64,000 nucleotides of DNA from Paludibacteraceae bacterium (lineage in GTDB: Bacteria; Bacteroidota; Bacteroidia; Bacteroidales; Paludibacteraceae), in the NCBI GenBank assembly GCA_024401565.1, contig JAKSKU010000011.1, forward strand, positions 1 through 64,000. The letters run 5' to 3'. A model generated the notes under the pieces. That model made no database searches and was not told the origin of the DNA. It saw only the letters and a list, made by a program, of their open reading frames with translations. Position numbers and translations under genes: made by a program. Of this stretch, positions 2,860-58,573 are shown one piece after another. Position 1 is the stretch's first letter, and each line of letters starts with the position of its first letter.

Positions 2860-4215
2860 TTAATTTAGGGCCGTCAAATCAATCTTGTAAATATTTTGAG
2901 ATGTAGTATCCTTTTTATTTTTCAGAAACATAATCATATAAATAGGAACATACAGCACCTTATCATTCTTTTTAATATTATCCTGACAAAAGACTATAGC
3001 TTTATTTATTTCGTACTCTTTATTTGAAACAACATTTTTCAATGCATTATGACGCTCATAGTCTTTTCCTGATTTCACCTCAATAGGAATTATTTCGCCT
3101 TCAAATTCAAGGATAAAATCAAGTTCTCCTTGCTTTTTGCTATTAAAATAATAAAGAGGAAATCCATTTGCAGTCAATTCTTGAGCAATGAAATTCTCAA
3201 AAATAGAACCGAAATTAATTGTCGTTTCTCCACTTAATATTTTGAACGCCATTCCTGAGGCATATTGAGACGCTAACAAACCCACATCATTCAAAAATAG
3301 CTTAAATAGATTCCTTAATTCACTCAGTTTTAAAGGCACACGTGGTTCATCAACGTTGTATGTTGGCAAGGCCACACCTGCGTCTTTTAACCAAAGAAAA
3401 GCATCCTCATACCTGGTAAAACGTGCATGTTCATTAAGATTCTTCAATATAAAACGTTTATTTTTTGCATCTAATTCTGATGGAATCAAATCAAAAATTT
3501 CTTTTATATTCAGTTTTTTTTCTTTGTCATACTGACTAATGTCCCATCTATACAAAGATACTATCTCTTTCTGCTTAAGAAGAACTTTATTCAAATCGTT
3601 TGTATCAAGATAGCATTGGACTACAGCAGGCATACCTCCAACTATCAAATAAAGATGAACTATTTTCATCATTGACTTATGAACAACATCATCCACTTCT
3701 TTACAGTCATTCAATGAATTTTCCAATGTTTCTAATATAGAACTGCTTACTCCCAATGCTTTCGCAAATTCCATTAAGTTAAGAGGATACACTTCCTCTA
3801 TAGACATATATCCCACAGGTATGCTACGTATGTCATTTAGTTCAACACCCAACAAACTCCCACTTAAAGCATATAAGAAAGATCCTTCGTCAACAAGGAA
3901 CTTAATCATAGTAACAGATTCTTTACAACGTTGGATTTCATCAAAAAAAATCAATGTTTTACCTGGTACAAGAGACATATTTAACCACGCTGATAATCTT
4001 TGCAATATGTCTTTCGCATTTCTAACATCCTTGAATATATTACAAGCTTCAGGATCTGCAAGAAAATTAACTTCAACCAAATCCAAACCCTTTTTCTGGG
4101 CATACTTTCTTATGGCAAAAGTCTTTCCTGTTTGTCTTGCTCCAGTCAAAAGAAGGGCAGTTTTAGTGGTAGCAAAGTGGTTTTCAATGATATAATCAAT
4201 ATTTCTATCTATCAT
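2860..4215 (-). CDS. AAA ATPase with C-terminal DUF4143-type nuclease-like domain
   Basis: 451 residues. The N-terminal AAA_14-type ATPase has a P-loop GARQTGKT at residues 25-32 and Walker B LIFFDEIQ with D92-E93. A helical middle region follows. The C-terminal domain has the restriction-nuclease-fold pattern (D366, then E379-V-K381 in IPIEVKSG), as in the DUF4143 group. This belongs to the large set of archaeal-type solitary ATPases whose substrate is unknown. The gene lies between two unrelated genes, and its start is preceded by a 33-bp-period tandem repeat (see 4240-4318). The repeat ends 8 bp from the stop of the upstream co-oriented flippase gene. It is one of four such ATPases in the window. 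Function beyond ATP hydrolysis is not known. Confidence 0.85.
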   Translation of the reverse strand: MIDRNIDYIIENHFATTKTALLLTGARQTGKTFAIRKYAQKKGLDLVEVNFLADPEACNIFKDVRNAKDILQRLSAWLNMSLVPGKTLIFFDEIQRCKESVTMIKFLVDEGSFLYALSGSLLGVELNDIRSIPVGYMSIEEVYPLNLMEFAKALGVSSSILETLENSLNDCKEVDDVVHKSMMKIVHLYLIVGGMPAVVQCYLDTNDLNKVLLKQKEIVSLYRWDISQYDKEKKLNIKEIFDLIPSELDAKNKRFILKNLNEHARFTRYEDAFLWLKDAGVALPTYNVDEPRVPLKLSELRNLFKLFLNDVGLLASQYASGMAFKILSGETTINFGSIFENFIAQELTANGFPLYYFNSKKQGELDFILEFEGEIIPIEVKSGKDYERHNALKNVVSNKEYEINKAIVFCQDNIKKNDKVLYVPIYMIMFLKNKKDTTSQNIYKIDLTALN

Positions 4216-4239
4216 GAATCAATAAATTTTGGAAAATTT

Positions 4240-4318
4240 ACATTTTTCTAAGGCAAAAATCACTATTTTTTGACACTTTTCCAAGGTAAAATAGACCATT
4301 TTTTGACACTTTTCCAAG
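4240..4318 (-). promoter_or_regulatory. Tandem repeats upstream of ATPase (operator candidate)
   Basis: Two identical 21-bp copies, at 4265-4285 and 4298-4318, contain TTTTTTGACACTTTTCC and are spaced exactly 33 bp apart. A third, degenerate copy ends at 4252 in the same phase. They fill the space between the ATPase start codon and the flippase stop codon. No clear -7 box was found beside them. Autoregulation is an inference from position. Confidence 0.65.
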
Positions 4319-49974: not shown

Positions 49975-51123
49975 TTAGTCCTTGCAATACACCGATACCT
50001 TCAGCAATGCTTTGTTTAATTCCTTCACCTGCTCAAGATAGGTTTTATTGTTGTCGAACCAAGTATGGCACATTGTAGCGTACTCAATTTCAGTGATGCG
50101 TCCACTTTCCAACGACTTCTTAAGAAGCTGCAACGACTGGTTGAACATATCCTTGTCGTACATACTTGTAAGCTTCACCAACTCCTCCAAACGATTCAAC
50201 TCATTGCTGATCGACGCATCAAGTTCAGCCGCACGCTGATGAAGTTCAAGGTTTGCGACGGTGCTCTCAGCCTGCACCAACTGTTTCTTACCCTTTGCCG
50301 AGAAGATAGGAATAGATGAACCCACCACGAATCCGTGAGCTGTCTCTCCTGCCTTAGTCATCTTGTAGCCAGCCGACAAGTTGGGATGCGACTCTGCCTT
50401 AGCCACCTTCATCTGCTGTGCGTTGATCTCAGCCTCAACAGCAATCAGTTCCTCCATCAAAGTCGATTTTCTGCTGCACTCCTTCAAATCCTTTGGATAT
50501 TCTTTGTCTGTGATCTTAACAGACGTGTTATTGCCAAGTAAAGCATTAAGCTGCAAATAATTCTCACTGAGTGTGCGATGTGTATTGCTATAGTTGGAGA
50601 AAGCAGTGATCATCTCCACCTGACCATCGTTGACCTCAAGAATATTGTACTTTCCCTCGTCTAATCCTCTTTTCAATTTATCATAGTTGACGCGGGACAT
50701 CTCGTAACGCATGGAATCCATCTCCATCATCTGGTTGAGATAGACAATCTCCGCGCAGATATCGTAAGCCGACGCGATAACCTCCCTACGTGTGATTTCA
50801 TACTCCAGAGAGTCGCGCTTATAAGCAAGTTTCTCAGCCTTCTTCATTCTCGCGTATTTGGTAGGGAAGGCAAACTCCTGGCTGACAACAAGTTCCATCT
50901 CATTGGCACTACCTGGAGCCATAAGCTGATACTCCACCGTCGGATCATCGAGATTACGTTCAGTACGCATCGAATATTGGTTGCTCTCTATCTTGGCACG
51001 CGCGATCTGAATCTGCGGATTATTATTATCAAGAGCCACCACCACGTTTTTGAATGGCATATCCTTAGCGGCCACAGATAAGGCAGCTATAAAAGAAAGA
51101 ACAGTCGTTAAAAGAAACTTCAT
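49975..51123 (-). CDS. TolC-family outer-membrane efflux protein (CzcC-like)
   Basis: 382 residues from the ATG at 51123. The longer frame from 51168 lacks a signal peptide at its start and overlaps the promoter. The signal peptide is MKFLLTTVLSFIAALSVAA. The mature protein is a typical outer-membrane factor with long helices (NPQIQIARAKIESNQYS, LKRGLDEGKYNILEVNDGQV, later SHPNLSAGYKMTKAG and LDASISNELNRLEELV). It would form the exit duct of the heavy-metal pump encoded at 55517-59911. It is separated from that operon by three ATPase genes but shares its operator (51163-51179). Confidence 0.85.
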   Translation of the reverse strand: MKFLLTTVLSFIAALSVAAKDMPFKNVVVALDNNNPQIQIARAKIESNQYSMRTERNLDDPTVEYQLMAPGSANEMELVVSQEFAFPTKYARMKKAEKLAYKRDSLEYEITRREVIASAYDICAEIVYLNQMMEMDSMRYEMSRVNYDKLKRGLDEGKYNILEVNDGQVEMITAFSNYSNTHRTLSENYLQLNALLGNNTSVKITDKEYPKDLKECSRKSTLMEELIAVEAEINAQQMKVAKAESHPNLSAGYKMTKAGETAHGFVVGSSIPIFSAKGKKQLVQAESTVANLELHQRAAELDASISNELNRLEELVKLTSMYDKDMFNQSLQLLKKSLESGRITEIEYATMCHTWFDNNKTYLEQVKELNKALLKVSVYCKD

Positions 51124-51143
51124 CTTATTTTTAATTAACATTA

Positions 51144-51179
51144 CAAAAGTAGAATCAAAACATTGCAATCCAGTTGCAA
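51144..51179 (-). promoter_or_regulatory. tolC-like gene promoter with TTGCAA-N5-TTGCAA operator
   Basis: The -7 box is the reverse complement of CAAAAGTA (51144-51151). Two TTGCAA hexamers at 51163-51168 and 51174-51179 lie 11 bp upstream, where a -33 box would be. The layout is the same as at 59954-59989. Confidence 0.65.
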
Positions 51180-51284
51180 TTGATATTTAATTCCGAAATA
51201 CAGCAATTTTCCTACGTTTGCAAAATTATGGCTAAAACGCAACATACCCAATACCTAAAAATGGGGATTGAGGAATATGGGTTA

Positions 51285-52460
51285 TCAATAAAGCAATCCG
51301 AATTGCCATAAAGGAATTATATTCAGACTACCATACTCAATATCATCCTTTACAATATACGCATTCTCTACATCCTTTATTTGCTTCTGTTTTTTGTTGC
51401 GACCACCGATTTCAAAAGTTATGCCATTAACTAAGAAATCCGATACAGGTGACACTATTGGATCATCGACAACTCGCAATTGATTCATAAAAAATGTCTC
51501 CCTGACATTACCTATTTCTGCATTTTCTTTTCTCGCAAGAGTATAAATAAGGTTTGTATTCTCAAGATAAACCTTATCTACCTTACCAAGAGATCGCACA
51601 CCTCCTGTCTGGTCTCTCAATTGTGTGATTAGTCCAGCCTCTTCAATATACAACAGATAGTCTGCTACATTGTTACGAGATACTCCCAAAACTTCAGCCA
51701 GTGTTACCATATTAGGCTTGAACGGAACACTTTCCGCAATCACAGTCATAAGTTTTTTTAGTTTTCTACCTGTAGACACATTCATATTTGCATATTCTGG
51801 AATATCCGTTTCTAATGTTTTAGTCACAACATTTACAAGTTTTTCCTCATAATCATCCTCTATTGCAAACGGATAATATCCTTTTTCCAAATACTTTCTA
51901 AAATAGACTAAAGGACGGAATGATTCATCCAATTCTATCTTGTTAGACAGAACTTCCTCAAGAGTGTAAATATCGACTTTGATATTTTCAAACAATTCAA
52001 GATACTCTCTGAATGATAATCCATACATCGTATAAACTACTGCTCTACGAGACAAATCAGAATGAACTCCCTTATTTATGTCTAAAACAGATGATCCGGA
52101 GAAAATCACATGAAGTTCAGGATGGTAGTCATAAATGAGTTTCAATTCCCTTGACCATCCGTCATATCTGTGCACCTCATCCACAACCAAATATTTTCCA
52201 CCCATTTTGCTGAACTCATCAGCAAGGTCAAATAGTGTATGTGACGCAAAATATAGATGCTCTGCATTCACATAAAGAGTAGTGTTCGCATCAAGGTGTT
52301 CTTTTATATACTGAAGAATCATCGTTGTCTTTCCAACACCTCTTGCTCCCACAATACCTACAAGACGGCCATTCCAATTAACTTTATTGTACAAGTATCT
52401 GTGAAACCCAGATGTCGTAAGTTTCAAGATTCTTTTATAATTCACAATCAGCTGTTCCAT
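51285..52460 (-). CDS. AAA ATPase with winged-helix and DUF4143-like C-terminus
   Basis: 391 residues from the ATG at 52460; the longer frame from 52505 adds a Leu-rich stretch encoded by the operator region. The P-loop is GARGVGKT (38-45) and Walker B is YLVVDEVHR (D94-E95). A winged-helix-like segment PNMVTLAEVLGVSRNNVADY lies near residue 265. The C-terminal part has a nuclease-like remnant (FEIGGRNKKQKQI). It has no known partner and sits in a row of three such genes. A pair of identical palindromes (52500-52550) lies just upstream of its -7 box. Its substrate is unknown. Confidence 0.83.
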   Translation of the reverse strand: MEQLIVNYKRILKLTTSGFHRYLYNKVNWNGRLVGIVGARGVGKTTMILQYIKEHLDANTTLYVNAEHLYFASHTLFDLADEFSKMGGKYLVVDEVHRYDGWSRELKLIYDYHPELHVIFSGSSVLDINKGVHSDLSRRAVVYTMYGLSFREYLELFENIKVDIYTLEEVLSNKIELDESFRPLVYFRKYLEKGYYPFAIEDDYEEKLVNVVTKTLETDIPEYANMNVSTGRKLKKLMTVIAESVPFKPNMVTLAEVLGVSRNNVADYLLYIEEAGLITQLRDQTGGVRSLGKVDKVYLENTNLIYTLARKENAEIGNVRETFFMNQLRVVDDPIVSPVSDFLVNGITFEIGGRNKKQKQIKDVENAYIVKDDIEYGSLNIIPLWQFGLLY

Positions 52461-52484
52461 TCCTATTTGATATAAATTACTTAG

Positions 52485-52550
52485 CAAAAGTAGTAAAATA
52501 TGCACTCACACAGTGCATATTTTTTAAATAAATGCACTCACACAGTGCAT
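52485..52550 (-). promoter_or_regulatory. Promoter and paired palindromic operators of ATPase gene
   Basis: The -7 box is the reverse complement of CAAAAGTA (52485-52492). ATGCACTCACACAGTGCAT occurs twice (52500-52518 and 52532-52550), 32 bp apart. Each copy is an inverted repeat with perfect 7-bp arms ATGCACT / AGTGCAT. They occupy the -33 region and upstream of it. Confidence 0.75.
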
Positions 52551-52583
52551 TTAAATTAAGATAATATTCCTTTCATTAAATCT

Positions 52584-53789
52584 CTACGACAAAAACTCAG
52601 ATATTGGTACCACCTTTATAATCTTCCCGTCAATCTCAAAAAAGTCTGTTTGATCCATGGTCACTATGTATCCTTCTTCAAGATTATAGGCTAACAAAGC
52701 ATCAAGTAGTCCATTTATTTCTCTGCTTCTATTATCAGCGTCAAGAGTCATACAGACCTGGATTGCTCTTATCACAGAATCGTTTTCAAGTACCACAAAG
52801 TCGCATTCTCCTTTTCCTTTGTGATAGCATATATCCTTATACTTTCTGCGTATTTCGCAGTAAACCATATTCTCCAACTTATGACCAGTATCCGCAGTTA
52901 ATTTTGCGACGTTACAATTTACTAAACCCAAGTCTACAGCATAGATTTTTTTTGGGTTTATACTTTGCTTTTTGACAGAGTAGTCGAATTTAGGCACAAA
53001 TGAGAAGAGATAGCATTGTTCCAAATAAGATATATACTCTAAGATAGTAGTGACTGAACTTATTCCAGAAGGTTCTTTCAATTTACTTGCAGAAGTAAGA
53101 TTTCCAATATTGGACATTAAGTACGTGGTAAGTCTACGCAAGGAACGTAAGTCACGGATATTGTAACGTACTGCCACATCTCGTGTCAAAATATCATCCA
53201 TCAATGCTCTCAGTATTTCTGGATTCTTTGATTTCAAATATTCCGGAAATCCTCCTAATTCCAAGTATTGTTCTATAGATTCCCTGTTTTTCTCAAGTCT
53301 CATCAATTTGCAAAACTCTACAAAGGAGAATGGAAATAACTCATAATTTACATGGCGACCAGTAAGACTTGTTCCTAGTTCACGACTAAGAAGCGACGCA
53401 TTGGAACCAGTAATGTACACTTTATATTCCTGTTCTAATTTCTGTCTTACATATCGTTCCCATCCTTTCACCACTTGTATTTCATCAAACACAAGTATCT
53501 GAGACTTTTTTTCACTAATCACCATATCAAGTTTTTGAAAATCAGATATTTCAAAATCAAATAGTCTAGGATCATCAAAATTTACAAATGTAAGACTATC
53601 TATATTTTGATTAAGAAGTAGCTTTAACAATGTGCTTTTGCCACATCTTCTGATTCCAGACACTATCAATGCGAAATTATCTATATAGGAAACCTCTTCT
53701 AATGCAGTGCGTGTTATTTCTCCTTTATCACGCTTAAGTATATCTTGTTGTTCAACAACTATTCTTTTCAAATCATCTAACTGTATCAT
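52584..53789 (-). CDS. AAA ATPase with DUF4143-like C-terminus
   Basis: 401 residues from the ATG at 53789; the in-frame start at 53816 falls in the operator palindrome. The P-loop is GIRRCGKST (45-53) and Walker B is ILVFDEIQ (D102-E103). An arginine-containing GSNASLLSRELGTSLTGRH block is typical of this AAA_14 group. A winged-helix-like region follows (LTSASKLKEPSGISSVTTIL). The C-terminal nuclease-like motif is GECDFVVLEND...AIQV, with the usual Lys replaced. Its operator differs from those of the neighbouring ATPase genes. Role unknown. Confidence 0.83.
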   Translation of the reverse strand: MIQLDDLKRIVVEQQDILKRDKGEITRTALEEVSYIDNFALIVSGIRRCGKSTLLKLLLNQNIDSLTFVNFDDPRLFDFEISDFQKLDMVISEKKSQILVFDEIQVVKGWERYVRQKLEQEYKVYITGSNASLLSRELGTSLTGRHVNYELFPFSFVEFCKLMRLEKNRESIEQYLELGGFPEYLKSKNPEILRALMDDILTRDVAVRYNIRDLRSLRRLTTYLMSNIGNLTSASKLKEPSGISSVTTILEYISYLEQCYLFSFVPKFDYSVKKQSINPKKIYAVDLGLVNCNVAKLTADTGHKLENMVYCEIRRKYKDICYHKGKGECDFVVLENDSVIRAIQVCMTLDADNRSREINGLLDALLAYNLEEGYIVTMDQTDFFEIDGKIIKVVPISEFLS

Positions 53790-53805
53790 AATAAATAATT
53801 TTCTG

Positions 53806-53868
53806 CAAATATACAAAAGTTTCCATTAGCAATGGAAACTTTTATCCATTACTAATGGAAACTTTTAT
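53806..53868 (-). promoter_or_regulatory. Promoter and tandem operator of ATPase gene
   Basis: The -7 box is the reverse complement of CAAATATA (53806-53813). Two 23-bp direct repeats at 53823-53845 and 53846-53868 are joined head to tail with 21 of 23 bases equal (CCATTA..AATGGAAAC core). The first is the centre of a perfect inverted repeat with 13-bp arms AAAAGTTTCCATT / AATGGAAACTTTT (53815-53843). Confidence 0.75.
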
Positions 53869-53910
53869 AATACCCCTATATCCTCCTCCATTTAAGGGAG
53901 GCTGTTAGGG

Positions 53911-53948
53911 TCTATTTCTTCAACCAATGATACAGAATCGGTATCACA
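53911..53948. repeat. 38-bp duplication of the 3' end of the RND pump gene (left copy)
   Basis: 37 of 38 bases match 55516-55553, which is the stop codon and last codons of the pump gene. The two copies flank the ATPase gene and its operator. The ATPase stop codon (53944-53946) lies inside this copy. Confidence 0.85.
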
Positions 53949-55359
53949 CAAACAAATCGTCCAATACTATTACATCATTAACACAACCACTATACTGATT
54001 AATTCGTAATCCATATGTGGTTACAAGAGTCATTCTTAGAGTCTTCTTTGTGCCAGTCAATTGTCTAAAAACTGAAGATTTGCGTCTAAAAATCTCTTCA
54101 CACGATTTATCTATGCTAAACTCGTCGCCTGAAAATTTCATCTCACACAAATTTATGACATTATCTCCACGATCTATCAATAAGTCAATCTGTGCTCCAT
54201 AATGATCATCTGTCGCTGATATCTGCCATGAAAAAGCGTTTGATATAACGCCTAATATTCCGAGAGATTGCTTCATTTGATTAATATGCTGCAAACAAAG
54301 ACGCTCAAACGCAAGCCCAACCCATGTGGTATATAATCGTGTTTGTATATTGTTGCTCCAATAGCACTCGTCATTATTAACATTACTTTTTATGTACCGA
54401 TTATAAAAGAAAGAATAGTTGTCCATCAACTGATAAATAGAACCCCTCTCTTTTTTTCCAAATTGGCTATACTTACGAATGAATCCACTTTGTTCAAGTT
54501 CTTCAAGAGTTTTACTAAAAGCAGTATTATCAGACAATTTTGTGTTTTTGAGAATATCCATTCTGGTCATTCCTGACATTTTTGTAGATAACACATCCAC
54601 AATTGCCACATGCATACCAGAATTTTTAAACAATGATGCGTACAGGGCGTTATATTCTGTTTTTAGTGGAGCCATCTCCTTGAAAAACATTGCATCAATA
54701 TTTTGGGACAAACTTCTATCCCTATTCAAAAAACTCCAATAATATGGTATTCCTCCCATCACCATATATGCCTCCGCAATATCCCTTCTTGAAAATGGAA
54801 TTTCTTTTACCTTGCAGAACTGCTCACACTCATGAAGAGTAAATGGTTTTAAATGAATCTGATTAGTCAATCTATTATGTAATCCACCGTAATCATTGAT
54901 TATCTTGTTGACAATCCACGATGTAGCACTTCCGCAAACAACAAGTATTATATCATGACGCATATTAGCCCAACCATTCCAAAAATGCTCTAACGCACTG
55001 ATGAAATTTGATTGTGGAGTATCAAGCCATGGCATCTCATCAATAAAAACAATCTTTTTTGTGTCTGCTTTTGATTCTAACAATGCCTCTAACCGATGGA
55101 ATGCTTCCTGCCAAGATAGGAGTTTTTTCTCCTTCTTCAGACCATATCTTCTTAGCGACTCCTGAAATTCCGCCAATTGTTCATGCATGTTACCTTTGGC
55201 CAACCCAGTATGCTGAAAAGCAAATGTCTCATTAAATGTCTGTTTAATGAGATATGTTTTGCCTACTCGACGGCGTCCATATACTGCTATAAACTGTGAT
55301 TCATCTGAATTAACAGCATTCAACAATACTTTGCTTTCTTCTTTTCTTCCTATTAGCAT
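53944..55359 (-). CDS. Archaeal-type ATPase with DUF234-like C-terminus
   Basis: 471 residues. The P-loop is GRRRVGKT (28-35) and Walker B is IVFIDEMPWLD (D107-E108). The VCGSATSWIVNKI and YGGLHNRLTNQIHLKPF blocks are typical of the archaeal ATPase_2 group. A winged helix lies near residue 270 (MSGMTRMDILKNTKLSDNTA). The C-terminal DUF234 region contains a nuclease-like motif (AQIDLLIDRGDN, CEMKF). The gene and its operator are bracketed by a 38-bp duplication of the RND gene 3' end, so the unit looks inserted. The start is preceded by two 48-bp repeats. Role unknown. Confidence 0.85.
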   Translation of the reverse strand: MLIGRKEESKVLLNAVNSDESQFIAVYGRRRVGKTYLIKQTFNETFAFQHTGLAKGNMHEQLAEFQESLRRYGLKKEKKLLSWQEAFHRLEALLESKADTKKIVFIDEMPWLDTPQSNFISALEHFWNGWANMRHDIILVVCGSATSWIVNKIINDYGGLHNRLTNQIHLKPFTLHECEQFCKVKEIPFSRRDIAEAYMVMGGIPYYWSFLNRDRSLSQNIDAMFFKEMAPLKTEYNALYASLFKNSGMHVAIVDVLSTKMSGMTRMDILKNTKLSDNTAFSKTLEELEQSGFIRKYSQFGKKERGSIYQLMDNYSFFYNRYIKSNVNNDECYWSNNIQTRLYTTWVGLAFERLCLQHINQMKQSLGILGVISNAFSWQISATDDHYGAQIDLLIDRGDNVINLCEMKFSGDEFSIDKSCEEIFRRKSSVFRQLTGTKKTLRMTLVTTYGLRINQYSGCVNDVIVLDDLFV

Positions 55360-55375
55360 ACTTATAATTTTTCTG

Positions 55376-55506
55376 CAAAATTATAAAAAAGTCTATCAAT
55401 CTTGTGGCTAACTATGATTTTTTACCACTTATCCACAACTTTGTCTTGATTTTTTAAGTCAATCTTGTGGCTAACTATGATTTTTTGCCACTTATCCACA
55501 ACTTTG
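55376..55506 (-). promoter_or_regulatory. Promoter and two 48-bp operator repeats of ATPase gene
   Basis: The -7 box is the reverse complement of CAAAATTA (55376-55383). Two 48-bp copies at 55396-55443 and 55459-55506 differ at one base and are spaced 63 bp apart. Each contains an inverted pair TTGTGGCTAA / TTATCCACAA. The right arm holds TTATCCACA, identical to the DnaA box. Confidence 0.8.
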
Positions 55507-55515
55507 AATTAACAT

Positions 55516-55553
55516 TCTATTTCTTCAACCAATGGTACAGAATCGGTATCACA
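55516..55553. repeat. 38-bp duplicated segment (right copy, at the pump gene 3' end)
   Basis: This is the original copy. It covers the stop codon and the last twelve codons of the RND gene and matches 53911-53948 except for one base. Confidence 0.85.
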
Positions 55554-58500
55554 ATGAGCGATAGGATAGTGGACGTTAGCAAACCTCCAAGGATGACTTG
55601 CGCCATCGGACACTGAATCTCGGCTCCCGGTTTGTCGCCGGCTATGATCATAGGTATCAAGGCAAGGGCTGAACTCAACGCTGTCATCAAAATAGGGTTG
55701 AGACGGGCTGCACTTCCGTCGACAATCTGCTTCTCCAATGTTTCTCCCTCTTTCTCTCGCTTCTCATACTCCGCAATCAATAGCATTCCTCCACGTGTGG
55801 CGATACCGAAAAGTGAGATGAATCCAATCACCGACGGAATGCTTATCACTCCTCCTGTAATGATGATTGAGACAACTCCACCCACCAAAGCAAGCGGCAA
55901 CGCACTAAGAATCAATCCACACGTTTTCCAACTATCAAACTGTTTTTTTAGCAACAACACGATGATTATCAACGATATTATCAACGTCACTGATAATGTG
56001 CGTGTGGCTCTTTGCTGACTCTCAAACTGTCCGCTGTACTCAATCCAGTAGCCTTCTGGCAACTCCACAGCCTCCGACACATTCTTCTTGATATCGTTGA
56101 CGATGGATTCAAGGTCACGGCCATTCTGCTGAGCCGACACTATGATTCGTCGGCTTCCGTTCTCTCGGTTGATTGTCGACGGTGCTGATGTATAGCTGAT
56201 ATTGCAGACGTAGGATAGAGGAATCATTCCCTTTGCCGACGGAATAAGTATGTCGCCGATCTCTCCTGTGTGCTTTTTCGACATCAATTTGATCTCAAAA
56301 CTCTTATTCTCTTCTCTCACCATTCCTACCTCTTTTGTGGATAGTTTGACGGTGATGAACTCAGCCAACTCTTTCTGCGTGATGCCGTATTCAGCAAGCA
56401 TCTCACGACGTGGAGTGATTTTAAGCTGTGGACGGAATGTCATCTGCTCTGAGTTGACGTCGGCAATTCCGTCGACTTCCTGCATCTCCTCTTTCACCAT
56501 ACCAGCAATCTGCTCAAGTTTAGGCAGTTCAGCACCGAAGATCTTCACTGCGATTGCCGACTGACTTCCTGAAAGCATCGCGTCGATACGGTGAGATATA
56601 GGCTGACCAATCTCTATGCTGGCTCCCTTGATGTGGCTCAACTTGTGTCGCACATCCTCCATCATCTCATCCTTGCTTCTGTCGCCAAGACGGTAAGGCA
56701 CCTCAATCTCCGACACGTTTGTGCCGAGTGCGTGCTCGTCCTTCTCAGCGCGACCTGTCTTGCGGCTTACAGTAATCACCTCTGGCACCTCCATAAGCAT
56801 CTTCTCAGCCTCCAAACCCATCTCGTTGCTCACGTCAAGCGATGTTCCCGGCAACGTGCTGATATTGATAGTCAACGATCCCTCGTTGAATGGAGGAAGG
56901 AAATTGGAACCAAATGTACACATTGCGATTATCGCTGCGACGAGAGCGACGCCCGACAACGCAAGAATCAATTTCTTACTGTCAAGAGCCCAGTTTAGAA
57001 CCTTTGCATATCCATTCTTAAGACGTTGTGACAACCACGATTCTTTTGAATCATTTTGTTTGTTATCAGTATTTGGTTTCAACAAATAACTACATAATAC
57101 AGGAGTCAACGTCAACGCCACGACAGTTGAACTTGCCAATGCCACAATGAATGCTATTCCAAGCGGAATAAGCATCTTGCCCTCCATACCTGAAAGGAAG
57201 AACAGTGGCAAGAAACTTGCGATGATTATCAGAGTGGAGTTGAGGATTGGCACACGCACCTCACCTGACGCCTCTTCTATCACGCTGATTATGGATTTTT
57301 TAGCACCGTCGGCATTAGTATTTATTCGCCTCCACACATTCTCCACATCCACGATAGCATCGTCGACGAGTGAACCGATGGCGATGGCGATACCTCCAAG
57401 ACTCATTGTGTTGATGCCAAGATTCATCAGTTTTAGCACCAAAATAGATGTCAACACCGATATTGGCAACGTAATCAATGAGATAGCCGTTGTGCGGAAG
57501 TTGGCAAGGAAGAGAATCAAGACGATTGCCACGAAGAAAATACCTTCGTAGAGTGAACTCTTCACATTGTCGATGGCTCTGTTGATGAAATCCGAACTAC
57601 GGAAAATATTTGTCTGCACCTTCACGTCGGCAGGCAGAGAAAGTTTGGAAATCTCCAACGTCTTCTCAATCTCTTCAGTAAGGTCGAGAGTTGAGGCTCC
57701 AGGCTGTTTAGTGACAGTAAGAAGCACCGCGTCACTACCCTTGATTGAAGCCTTTCCAATACGTGGAAAACGTGGGGCTACATGAATCTCAGCAATATCT
57801 GAAAGAGTGACGGAATAGTTACCACGCTTTGCGATGAATGCCGAACCAAGTATGGCAGTGTCGCGAGTGGAACAAACACATCTCACGGAATATTCTGTGC
57901 CATGACGAGTGGTGAATCCACCGTTAACATTCTGATTTATACCTTCAAGAGACTCAGTCACCTCAGCGATTGAAACTCCATAGTGTTGCATTTTAAGTTC
58001 ATCCAACTCAATCTGATACTCCTTCACGTCACCACCAATCACAGTGACACCAGCCACACCGGAGATAGACATCAGACGAGGACGAAGTTCAAAATCAGCC
58101 GACGTGCGGAGATCCATCAAAGATGTGGAGTCGGCCTGCAAACCCACGATGAAAATCTCACCCATGATAGACGACTGTGGAGCCATCACAGGTTGGCCAG
58201 CCTCAGCAGGTAGAGCCGACGACAACTCAGGAAGTTTCTCCGAGATTGTCTGTCGAGCCACAAGCACATCAGTGCTCCAGTCGAATTCAGCCCACACGAT
58301 AGACAGACCATCAGTGGAAGTGCTTCGGATTCGTCTGATACCGCTCGCACCTGAAAGCGACGACTCAATAGGATAGGAGACAAGAGCCTCAACATCCTCA
58401 GTGTTCATAGCACCACACTCGGTCATCACAACGACAGTAGGGGCATTCAAGTCGGGGAAGATATCAATCTCCGCCTCATGGGCAGAATACAATCCGTAGA

Positions 58501-58573
58501 TAGTCAAAACCACTGCACAGAGAATTACAAATAATCTGTGAGTCAGTGAATTATGTATGATTTTTGCTAACAT
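55517..58573 (-). CDS. Heavy-metal efflux RND transporter (CusA/CzcA family)
   Basis: 1018 residues, the family length. It has two large periplasmic loops and about 12 membrane helices. Motifs include HEAEIDIFPDLNAPTVVVMT at the N-terminus, LVDDAIVDVENVWRRI in the fourth-helix region, TLPGTSLDVSNEMG and GIATRGGMLLIAEYEKREK. The family exports monovalent (Cus) or divalent (Czc) metals from the periplasm. It starts 12 bp after the adaptor gene, so both are co-transcribed. The matching outer-membrane gene lies 4.4 kb away at 49975, with ATPase genes in between. Confidence 0.92.
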   Translation of the reverse strand: MLAKIIHNSLTHRLFVILCAVVLTIYGLYSAHEAEIDIFPDLNAPTVVVMTECGAMNTEDVEALVSYPIESSLSGASGIRRIRSTSTDGLSIVWAEFDWSTDVLVARQTISEKLPELSSALPAEAGQPVMAPQSSIMGEIFIVGLQADSTSLMDLRTSADFELRPRLMSISGVAGVTVIGGDVKEYQIELDELKMQHYGVSIAEVTESLEGINQNVNGGFTTRHGTEYSVRCVCSTRDTAILGSAFIAKRGNYSVTLSDIAEIHVAPRFPRIGKASIKGSDAVLLTVTKQPGASTLDLTEEIEKTLEISKLSLPADVKVQTNIFRSSDFINRAIDNVKSSLYEGIFFVAIVLILFLANFRTTAISLITLPISVLTSILVLKLMNLGINTMSLGGIAIAIGSLVDDAIVDVENVWRRINTNADGAKKSIISVIEEASGEVRVPILNSTLIIIASFLPLFFLSGMEGKMLIPLGIAFIVALASSTVVALTLTPVLCSYLLKPNTDNKQNDSKESWLSQRLKNGYAKVLNWALDSKKLILALSGVALVAAIIAMCTFGSNFLPPFNEGSLTINISTLPGTSLDVSNEMGLEAEKMLMEVPEVITVSRKTGRAEKDEHALGTNVSEIEVPYRLGDRSKDEMMEDVRHKLSHIKGASIEIGQPISHRIDAMLSGSQSAIAVKIFGAELPKLEQIAGMVKEEMQEVDGIADVNSEQMTFRPQLKITPRREMLAEYGITQKELAEFITVKLSTKEVGMVREENKSFEIKLMSKKHTGEIGDILIPSAKGMIPLSYVCNISYTSAPSTINRENGSRRIIVSAQQNGRDLESIVNDIKKNVSEAVELPEGYWIEYSGQFESQQRATRTLSVTLIISLIIIVLLLKKQFDSWKTCGLILSALPLALVGGVVSIIITGGVISIPSVIGFISLFGIATRGGMLLIAEYEKREKEGETLEKQIVDGSAARLNPILMTALSSALALIPMIIAGDKPGAEIQCPMAQVILGGLLTSTILSLIVIPILYHWLKK

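Follow-up and report, generated by a model that had tools for sequence, protein, structure and literature searches.

The window analysed here is a 64,000-nucleotide stretch of the genome of a Paludibacteraceae bacterium (GenBank assembly GCA_024401565.1, contig JAKSKU010000011.1, positions 1 to 64,000), and our subject is four solitary ATPase genes in it together with the repeated elements that precede them. Three of the genes lie in tandem on the minus strand, in the order A3 (53944..55359), A2 (52584..53789) and A1 (51285..52460), between a cusA-like RND efflux gene (55517-58573) and a tolC-like outer-membrane efflux gene (49975-51168). The fourth, A4, is found elsewhere in the window, also on the minus strand (2860..4215). 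All four open reading frames (ORFs) are as described in a first-pass annotation of this DNA. The ORFs listed for A1 and A2 extend to 52505 and 53816, respectively, and probably start slightly too early, because the first ATG codons are at 52460 and 53789; those of A3 and A4 are at 55359 and 4215. The names cusA and tolC, like ogt and methyltransferase below, reflect our own reading of the sequences and were not assigned by a tool.

The families of these ATPases are known, as the same annotation had stated. Pfam recognizes AAA_14 together with DUF4143 in A1, A2 and A4, the DUF4143 match of A1 being weak, and ATPase_2 in A3, where DUF234 remains below the cut-off; weak nSTAND matches of the window proteins are likewise below the Pfam cut-off. 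The PADLOC profile PDC-S01 is matched by A4 (4e-186), A2 (1e-113) and A1 (1e-29, spanning only part of its best profile), and PDC-S27 is matched by A3 over its full length (8.6e-201, residues 2-470). By eye, a C-terminal PD-(D/E)XK-like nuclease motif is intact in A4 (ELDF...EVK) and degenerate in A2 and A1. No NCBIfam family scored above its cut-off for the six proteins scanned, and no transposase domain was among the Pfam, NCBIfam and PHROGs matches of the four to six proteins scanned.

A duplicated element precedes each of the four start codons, close to where the first-pass annotation had placed it; we refer to these elements as operators. That of A4 (4233..4318, minus strand, as are all features that follow) is formed by CTTGGAAAAGTGTCAAAAAAT copies with a 33-bp period, two of which are good and the third degenerate by eye. 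The operator of A1 (52500..52550) consists of two ATGCACTGTGTGAGTGCAT palindromes of 19 bp each, 32 bp apart; that of A2 (53814..53869) consists of GTTTCCATTnnTAATGGAAAC-type units with a 23-bp period (repeats at 53822-53867); and that of A3 (55396..55506) is made up of two 48-bp units with a spacing of 63 bp, TTGTGG/CCACAA arms being present in both. A -7 box of the TAnnTTTG type is located at 52485..52492 for A1, at 53806..53813 for A2, where it abuts the last operator unit, and at 55376..55383 for A3. These are the three cases in which a box had been reported beside the repeats, and none was found upstream of A4. When 26 operator units were scanned against 359 kb of this genome, 24 matched at their own locus only, and the other two, both short, each gave one additional inexact match. 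A dispersed repeat family was rejected on this count. It was also rejected for the A2 unit across genomes, since this unit occupies one orthologous place per genome, except for one further site with a single mismatch in the relative that we denote G005 (G, C and L numbers are our handles for genomes, contigs and loci).

Upstream repeats across the genome, genus and phylum

The source genome (2.18 Mb, 78% complete) contains 35 AAA_14 matches, of which 32 are above the Pfam cut-off; the three below it were retained. A direct repeat scoring at least 13 within 150 bp of the start is present in 27 of these 35 genes, compared with 4 of 135 control genes, from which divergent neighbours sharing the upstream region of an ATPase had been removed (Fisher p 5e-19, at a threshold of at least 14). 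Palindromes alone separate the two groups less: a score of at least 11 is reached by 10/35 AAA_14 genes and 13/135 controls.

Profile searches gave 214 hits, which filters on length, start and flank reduced to 119 distinct proteins; this genome accounts for 27 of them, congeners for 65 and a phylum sample for 27. Among the 92 ATPases of the genus, whose congener loci were taken best-scoring first rather than as a random draw, 79 have an upstream repeat within 200 bp, a count that has no matched control. The repeat period is 32 or 33 bp in 52 of these 79, 39-42 bp in 11 and 63-66 bp in 10, that is, about three, four and six turns of the helix. A broad peak near 10.5 bp is also seen in a Rayleigh scan of the spacings, but it is no independent proof of phasing because the 32/33-bp class dominates. 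The TAnnTTTG box is found in the last 80 nucleotides before 68 of the 79 repeat-bearing ATPases, against 70 of 149 controls, and in 40 of these 68 it lies within -7 to +10 bp of the end of the last repeat.

In the phylum-wide sample, DUF4143 is present in 33 of 61 genomes, this one counted. Strict thresholds are passed by 11 of 27 loci, as opposed to 1 of 270 shuffles (L191 and L200 were dropped from this count), and many of the other loci have, by eye, interrupted palindromes near the start codon. Chance or AT-richness as the source of the repeats was rejected by the gene controls, the shuffles and the random windows. Relatives of A3 were analysed at 19 of 20 loci (L359 was dropped): a palindrome scoring at least 9 within 180 bp is present in 16 of the 19, with varied cores and no matched control, and the 63-bp repeat is mostly lacking. 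A4 homologues at E<=1e-60 were found by the phylum search in 1 of 296 genomes, namely this one, and the A4 operator is therefore not comparable outside the genus.

Several further repeats were noticed by eye in the course of this survey. Upstream of at least two high-scoring controls, the repeats resemble solitary operators of the ATPase type. In this genome, tandem repeats similar to the operator of the L063 ATPase precede a uvrA-like gene (L037:6235-9048), and AAGAAAAGTGT-type tandem repeats precede a DEAD-box helicase-like gene (L042:5173-6468).

The operators follow the clade of the protein. A search with one 396-residue protein defined clade T, which has a match in 43 of 296 genomes; of 30 loci retrieved, 29 entered the analysis (L252 was dropped), including the four that had suggested the motif. 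TGAGTAA or TTACTCA occurs within 110 bp of the start in 28 of the 29, compared with 4 of 536 random windows from the same loci, and at least twice in 25 of the 29. With the four motif-suggesting loci removed, the count is 24 of 25. Identity among the clade T proteins goes down to 51%, and nearly half of them come from one genus. Similarly, at least two AA[AG]TGT elements precede 15 of 17 genus proteins with a GxRA helix and 2 of 75 others, the pattern having been picked after examples had been seen; A4 (L025) is among the two non-GxRA proteins that also have this core. At least two TGCA elements precede 8 of 8 proteins with an SRN helix, including A1 (motif GVSRNN), against 2 of 6 others in a set of 14, in which seven of the eight SRN proteins belong to one clade. 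The repeats had been described as unrelated in sequence and unique to each gene. They are indeed nearly all confined to their own locus, but they are not mutually unrelated, since proteins of the same clade share operators. Neither of the two outcomes named in advance as contrary to the first-pass proposal, a lack of repeat enrichment among homologues and a lack of correspondence with protein clade, was observed.

Residue-base co-variation in clade C

A further set of relatives, clade C, allowed bases and residues to be compared directly. Of at least 565 relatives in named genomes, 80 loci were kept, from many bacterial phyla and the archaeon Methanoculleus; 307 plasmid records and 5 phage records also contain clade C relatives. 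This genome contributes two genes to the clade (L042 and L045), neither of them among A1-A4. After L291 and L307 were dropped, 44 of 78 loci have a strong palindrome within 90 bp, compared with 6 of 234 random windows; the half-site ACAAATTG is common to many of these operators, and a second operator copy is present in 4 of 57 loci. At L042 the clade C ATPase has its own palindrome, and three operators of another ATPase clade (as at L060, L061 and L072) lie just upstream of the gene (L042:4893-5120), as if one ATPase had replaced another.

Symmetry was the sole criterion for centring the clade C operators, the proteins being left out of consideration, and mutual information was then calculated between operator positions and protein columns for 66 proteins (effective number 31.6); those with a symmetry score below 8 were left out, as were L296, L344, L345 and L176, by hand. 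The top three columns are, in order, 219 (with base -5), 221 (with bases -5 and -6) and 220 (with base -7). These residues are consecutive and lie at the helix start of GVDSKTITQWL, the predicted recognition helix. Counted by half-site, Asp at position 219 occurs with G at -5 in 28/28 cases and Ser with A in 57/68; at position 220, His occurs with G at -7 in 59/66 and Gln with C in 12/18; and at position 221, Lys occurs with G at -6 in 26/28 and Asn with T in 22/30. For co-variation with bases -7 to -5, this triple ranks first of 349 consecutive triples. When all 91 proteins are used, with the hand exclusions omitted, it ranks first of 339, and 0 of 1000 permutations reach it. At protein identity levels below 60%, the identity of the operator cores is 0.16-0.20 when no helix residue matches and 0.71-0.90 when all three match; at 50-60% protein identity, specifically, the values are 0.19 and 0.71. 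The triple DSK recurs with a CGGAA core in a different clade of proteins of about 375 residues (L009 and L210, probably one lineage).

The putative helix lies in a segment with weak similarity to DNA-binding families. Weak helix-turn-helix (HTH) matches (HTH_28, GntR, HTH_36 and similar) were obtained for three of five proteins; a fourth has at best a match to another DNA-binding family, and one has none. As the operator bases track residues in a predicted helix of the ATPase itself, the clade C ATPases very probably read their own operators. That each protein recognizes its own repeat, as the first-pass annotation had suggested, is supported to this extent in clade C, and for A1-A4 it is an extrapolation by analogy. 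The nuclease-like residues Glu, Asp, Glu and Lys are kept in 88-89 of 89 clade C proteins, and this conservation suggests that the nuclease is active in this clade.

The same co-variation bears on the possibility that the repeats are transcribed and serve as RNA antitoxins, in the manner of type III toxin-antitoxin systems. Such a system would present repeat units of about 33 nucleotides in tandem, directly upstream of a nuclease-like gene. However, the repeats are commonly upstream of the -7 box or overlap it, other clades have a single short palindrome, and the co-variation of bases with residues fits a reading of duplex DNA; we regard this explanation as scarcely credible.

Flanking duplications, empty sites and orphan operators

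The first-pass annotation had also raised the possibility of mobile cassettes, and both flanking duplications and empty sites now support it. A 38-bp sequence at the 3′ end of the cusA-like gene (55516..55553) recurs, with 37 of 38 positions identical, on the other side of A3 (53911..53948), where it overlaps the A3 stop codon. In the relative G005 this site has a single 38-bp copy and A3 is absent, and six further congeners have one diverged copy. We take the copy in the cusA-like gene to be the original target and the other to be its duplicate. In contig C28 of this genome, a PDC-S27-like gene, assigned to its family by similarity to A3, lies between two copies of the start of an ogt-like gene, and the corresponding site in G005 has one copy of this start and no ATPase. 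A weaker third case involves an ATPase beside a methyltransferase-like gene in G001 and G002, bracketed by 27 bp. At that site, G003 and G007 have one 27-bp copy with the interval filled by an efflux cluster, this genome has one copy with a different ATPase in the interval, and G004, which has no ATPase there, has no 27-bp copy at threshold. By ORF reading, the cluster in G003 and G007 (L160:3258-10672 and L161:3768-11182) comprises efflux-pump and two-component genes, in the same interval that holds ATPases in this genome and in G001 and G002.

Across the loci tested, direct repeats between the 700-bp flanks were detected at 51 of 241 ATPase loci and at 2 of 112 control genes, the latter all from this genome. 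The 241 are those of 248 loci with long enough flanks, and they include orthologues and one locus twice (L198/L242). In a separate window test, the counts are 36 of 209 ATPase loci and 1 of 289 random window pairs from the same loci. By eye, in 14-16 of the 51 the operator itself is present on both sides, and in most of the others the duplicated sequence is neighbouring DNA. Merging by hand reduced the 51 loci to 43, and in 25 of these the right copy starts within -60 to +40 of the ATPase stop codon (binomial p 5e-12, with an approximate null). Because the right copy is near the stop codon, the moving unit appears to be the operator plus the ORF. The duplications measure about 26-38 bp at the checked sites and are longer elsewhere.

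Two other repeated sequences were encountered among these loci: a dispersed repeat of about 120 bp (L050:4508-4627), represented by at least several tens of copies across this genome and those of its congeners, and a repetitive coding region (L038:4500-4950), with many partial copies in G006:C12, G002:C13, G008:C235 and G000:C1.

It is a strong possibility, which we place a little below an even chance, that the genes are ordinary autoregulated defence genes, i.e., single-gene antiviral nucleases that are self-repressed until infection and spread by general horizontal transfer, with the duplications arising from host repair or illegitimate recombination rather than from the protein. PADLOC assigns all four window genes to its defence models, and the operator evidence fits this explanation equally well. 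PDC-S01 is among the commonest candidates in the literature, being called the fourth most common defence system across prokaryotes in PMC12988326, and a Thermus thermophilus AAA_14/DUF4143 gene, listed as a predicted transposase, is up 6.6-fold when a plasmid and Argonaute are both present (PMC4406477). By contrast, the clustering of right ends at the ATPase stop codon is unexpected from random repair. In addition, the family is known by name as a defence candidate and is unvalidated as such (PMC12988326 and PMC13356809), and the former source states that most such candidates await validation.

Operators also occur without their genes. A2 was found in this genome and in G005 only, at 98% identity; inspection of the cusA-tolC site in seven further congeners, several of whose genomes are incomplete, did not reveal it. 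The A2 unit, in turn, occupies this place in 8 of 9 genomes, including six that lack A2 there. The A1 palindrome is found as a single copy in G005, at a site lacking A1, and in the same genome the operators of another ATPase stand without that ATPase. The array of a fourth ATPase is present in G003 and G007 without the gene; in G003, a truncated ORF with a match to the ATPase profile is located about 180 bp away from the array, and G007 has a similar ORF. No remnants of the missing ATPases were detected at the orphan-operator sites tested, the one strong match being the 3′ end of the neighbouring A2. Orphan operators may be either scars of clean loss or earlier targets.

Such sites could be read as the empty targets of homing-like spread, in which the nuclease would act at operators without a gene and repair would copy the gene in. 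The genes directly adjoin the operator, gene-less operators are found at orthologous sites, and operator arrays flank some genes on both sides, all as homing would predict. Nevertheless, the operator is intact in occupied sites, so that self-cleavage would need to be prevented, and the duplicated target of the two clean insertions is not the operator; we consider homing unlikely. Operators without an ATPase gene would also be expected if the repeats were read by another host regulator, for which the ATPase is merely a target gene. This explanation seems very improbable, since an outside regulator leaves unexplained why, across phyla, the operator bases in clade C vary with three residues of the ATPase itself.

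Proposed cassette and its relation to known systems

Taken together, these data make it probable that each unit is a one-gene cassette, consisting of an operator and an ORF, that recognizes and regulates itself and enters sites as a unit. The enrichment of operators, their linkage to protein clades, the co-variation in clade C, the flanking duplications and the two clean empty sites provide the computed support. In the proposed mechanism, the ORF would encode an AAA ATPase that combines a DNA-binding segment of the winged-helix type with a C-terminus resembling PD-(D/E)XK nucleases. Through its winged helix, the protein would read the operator that precedes its gene, and an ATPase oligomer would bind the repeated copies cooperatively and close its own promoter; such cooperative binding would be expected to go with copy spacings near whole helical turns, as seen. 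Autorepression is likely, because the operator copies sit at the promoter, and its release may depend on the nucleotide state or on a signal from an invader. Since paralogues differ both in recognition residues and in operators, up to about 37 per genome could be regulated without cross-talk. The cassette would enter a new site with a direct duplication of the target, its right end near the ATPase stop codon, and its operators could persist without the gene. In the boldest step, the nuclease would make offset nicks and so move the cassette. We infer physical binding, oligomerisation and autorepression, the validity of the recognition code for the window's own proteins, and the action of the protein as its own recombinase.

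Several observations weigh against this proposal. No repeat at threshold precedes 13 of the 92 genus ATPases, and in the phylum sample only the 11 of 27 loci given above pass strict thresholds. A crude Mantel test on whole upstream regions was flat (rho 0.01, 27 proteins of this genome), a test that the operator-centred ones supersede. The co-variation is seen in clade C and not in A1-A4, its phylogenetic share is not fully removable, and the segment matches HTH-type profiles weakly (E 0.014-0.23). About four fifths of the loci lack a duplication in their flanks, unrelated local events may account for some of the 51, and a clean single-copy empty site is available in two cases only, A3 and the C28 gene. 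Lastly, insertion alone does not explain the orphan operators.

A more far-reaching interpretation, to which we give tentative and rather less than even credence, is that PDC-S01 and PDC-S27 are autonomous mobile elements of a new class, each made up of one gene, in which one protein is regulator, motor and recombinase. The winged helix would address its own operator by a short residue-to-base code, the long duplications of the target would stem from widely offset nicks made by the nuclease, and as the code diversified, immunity-like groups would arise that allow tens of copies to coexist per genome. Should the cassette proposal be correct, PDC-S01 would gain a testable biology, namely the DNA that each protein reads, a partly readable residue-to-base code, and the movement of operator and gene together. 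Thousands of genes would become assayable singly, a natural set of orthogonal regulators would be on offer, and counting PDC-S01 and PDC-S27 genes as defence may mislead.

In the literature searched, we came across no account of operators that these ATPases themselves would read, of a recognition code, or of duplicated targets in this family. The PDC candidates are described as ATPase domains fused to PD-(D/E)XK members (PMC12988326). The window proteins match the PADLOC models; the published descriptions, as far as the consulted portions go, are silent on operators, self-recognition and target duplications.

Among solved structures, the best match of the profile is PDB 2fna (E 7e-9, a weak match), which we take to be SSO1545; PDB 2qen (3e-5) is in seventh place, preceded by AAA ATPases whose matches cover short P-loop stretches. 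The likeness to these SSO1545-type proteins (Pfam ATPase_2) is that the profile alignment to 2fna extends to an HTH-like C-terminal stretch at the helix segment; the difference is the weakness of the match. The STAND NTPases MalT and IniR also couple an ATPase to DNA binding, and the ATPase domain of IniR has been compared to SSO1545, but MalT and IniR regulate other operons, whereas the proposed target of the ATPases here is their own gene.

Insertion sequences, too, have one gene, duplicate their target, and are gained and lost between relatives. Here, by contrast, no transposase family was matched, the right end is at the stop codon, and the duplications are about 26-38 bp or longer; no terminal inverted repeats were noticed at the cassettes, in the absence of a systematic search. 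The iteron-binding Rep proteins of plasmids use a winged helix to read tandem repeats that are phased with the DNA helix and lie next to the gene for the Rep protein, whereas no origin or replication function is seen here. Finally, autoregulated antitoxins and phage repressors are small autorepressing units, each with its own operator, that form specificity groups without cross-talk; in the cassettes proposed here, the regulator, the ATPase and the nuclease would instead be one protein.

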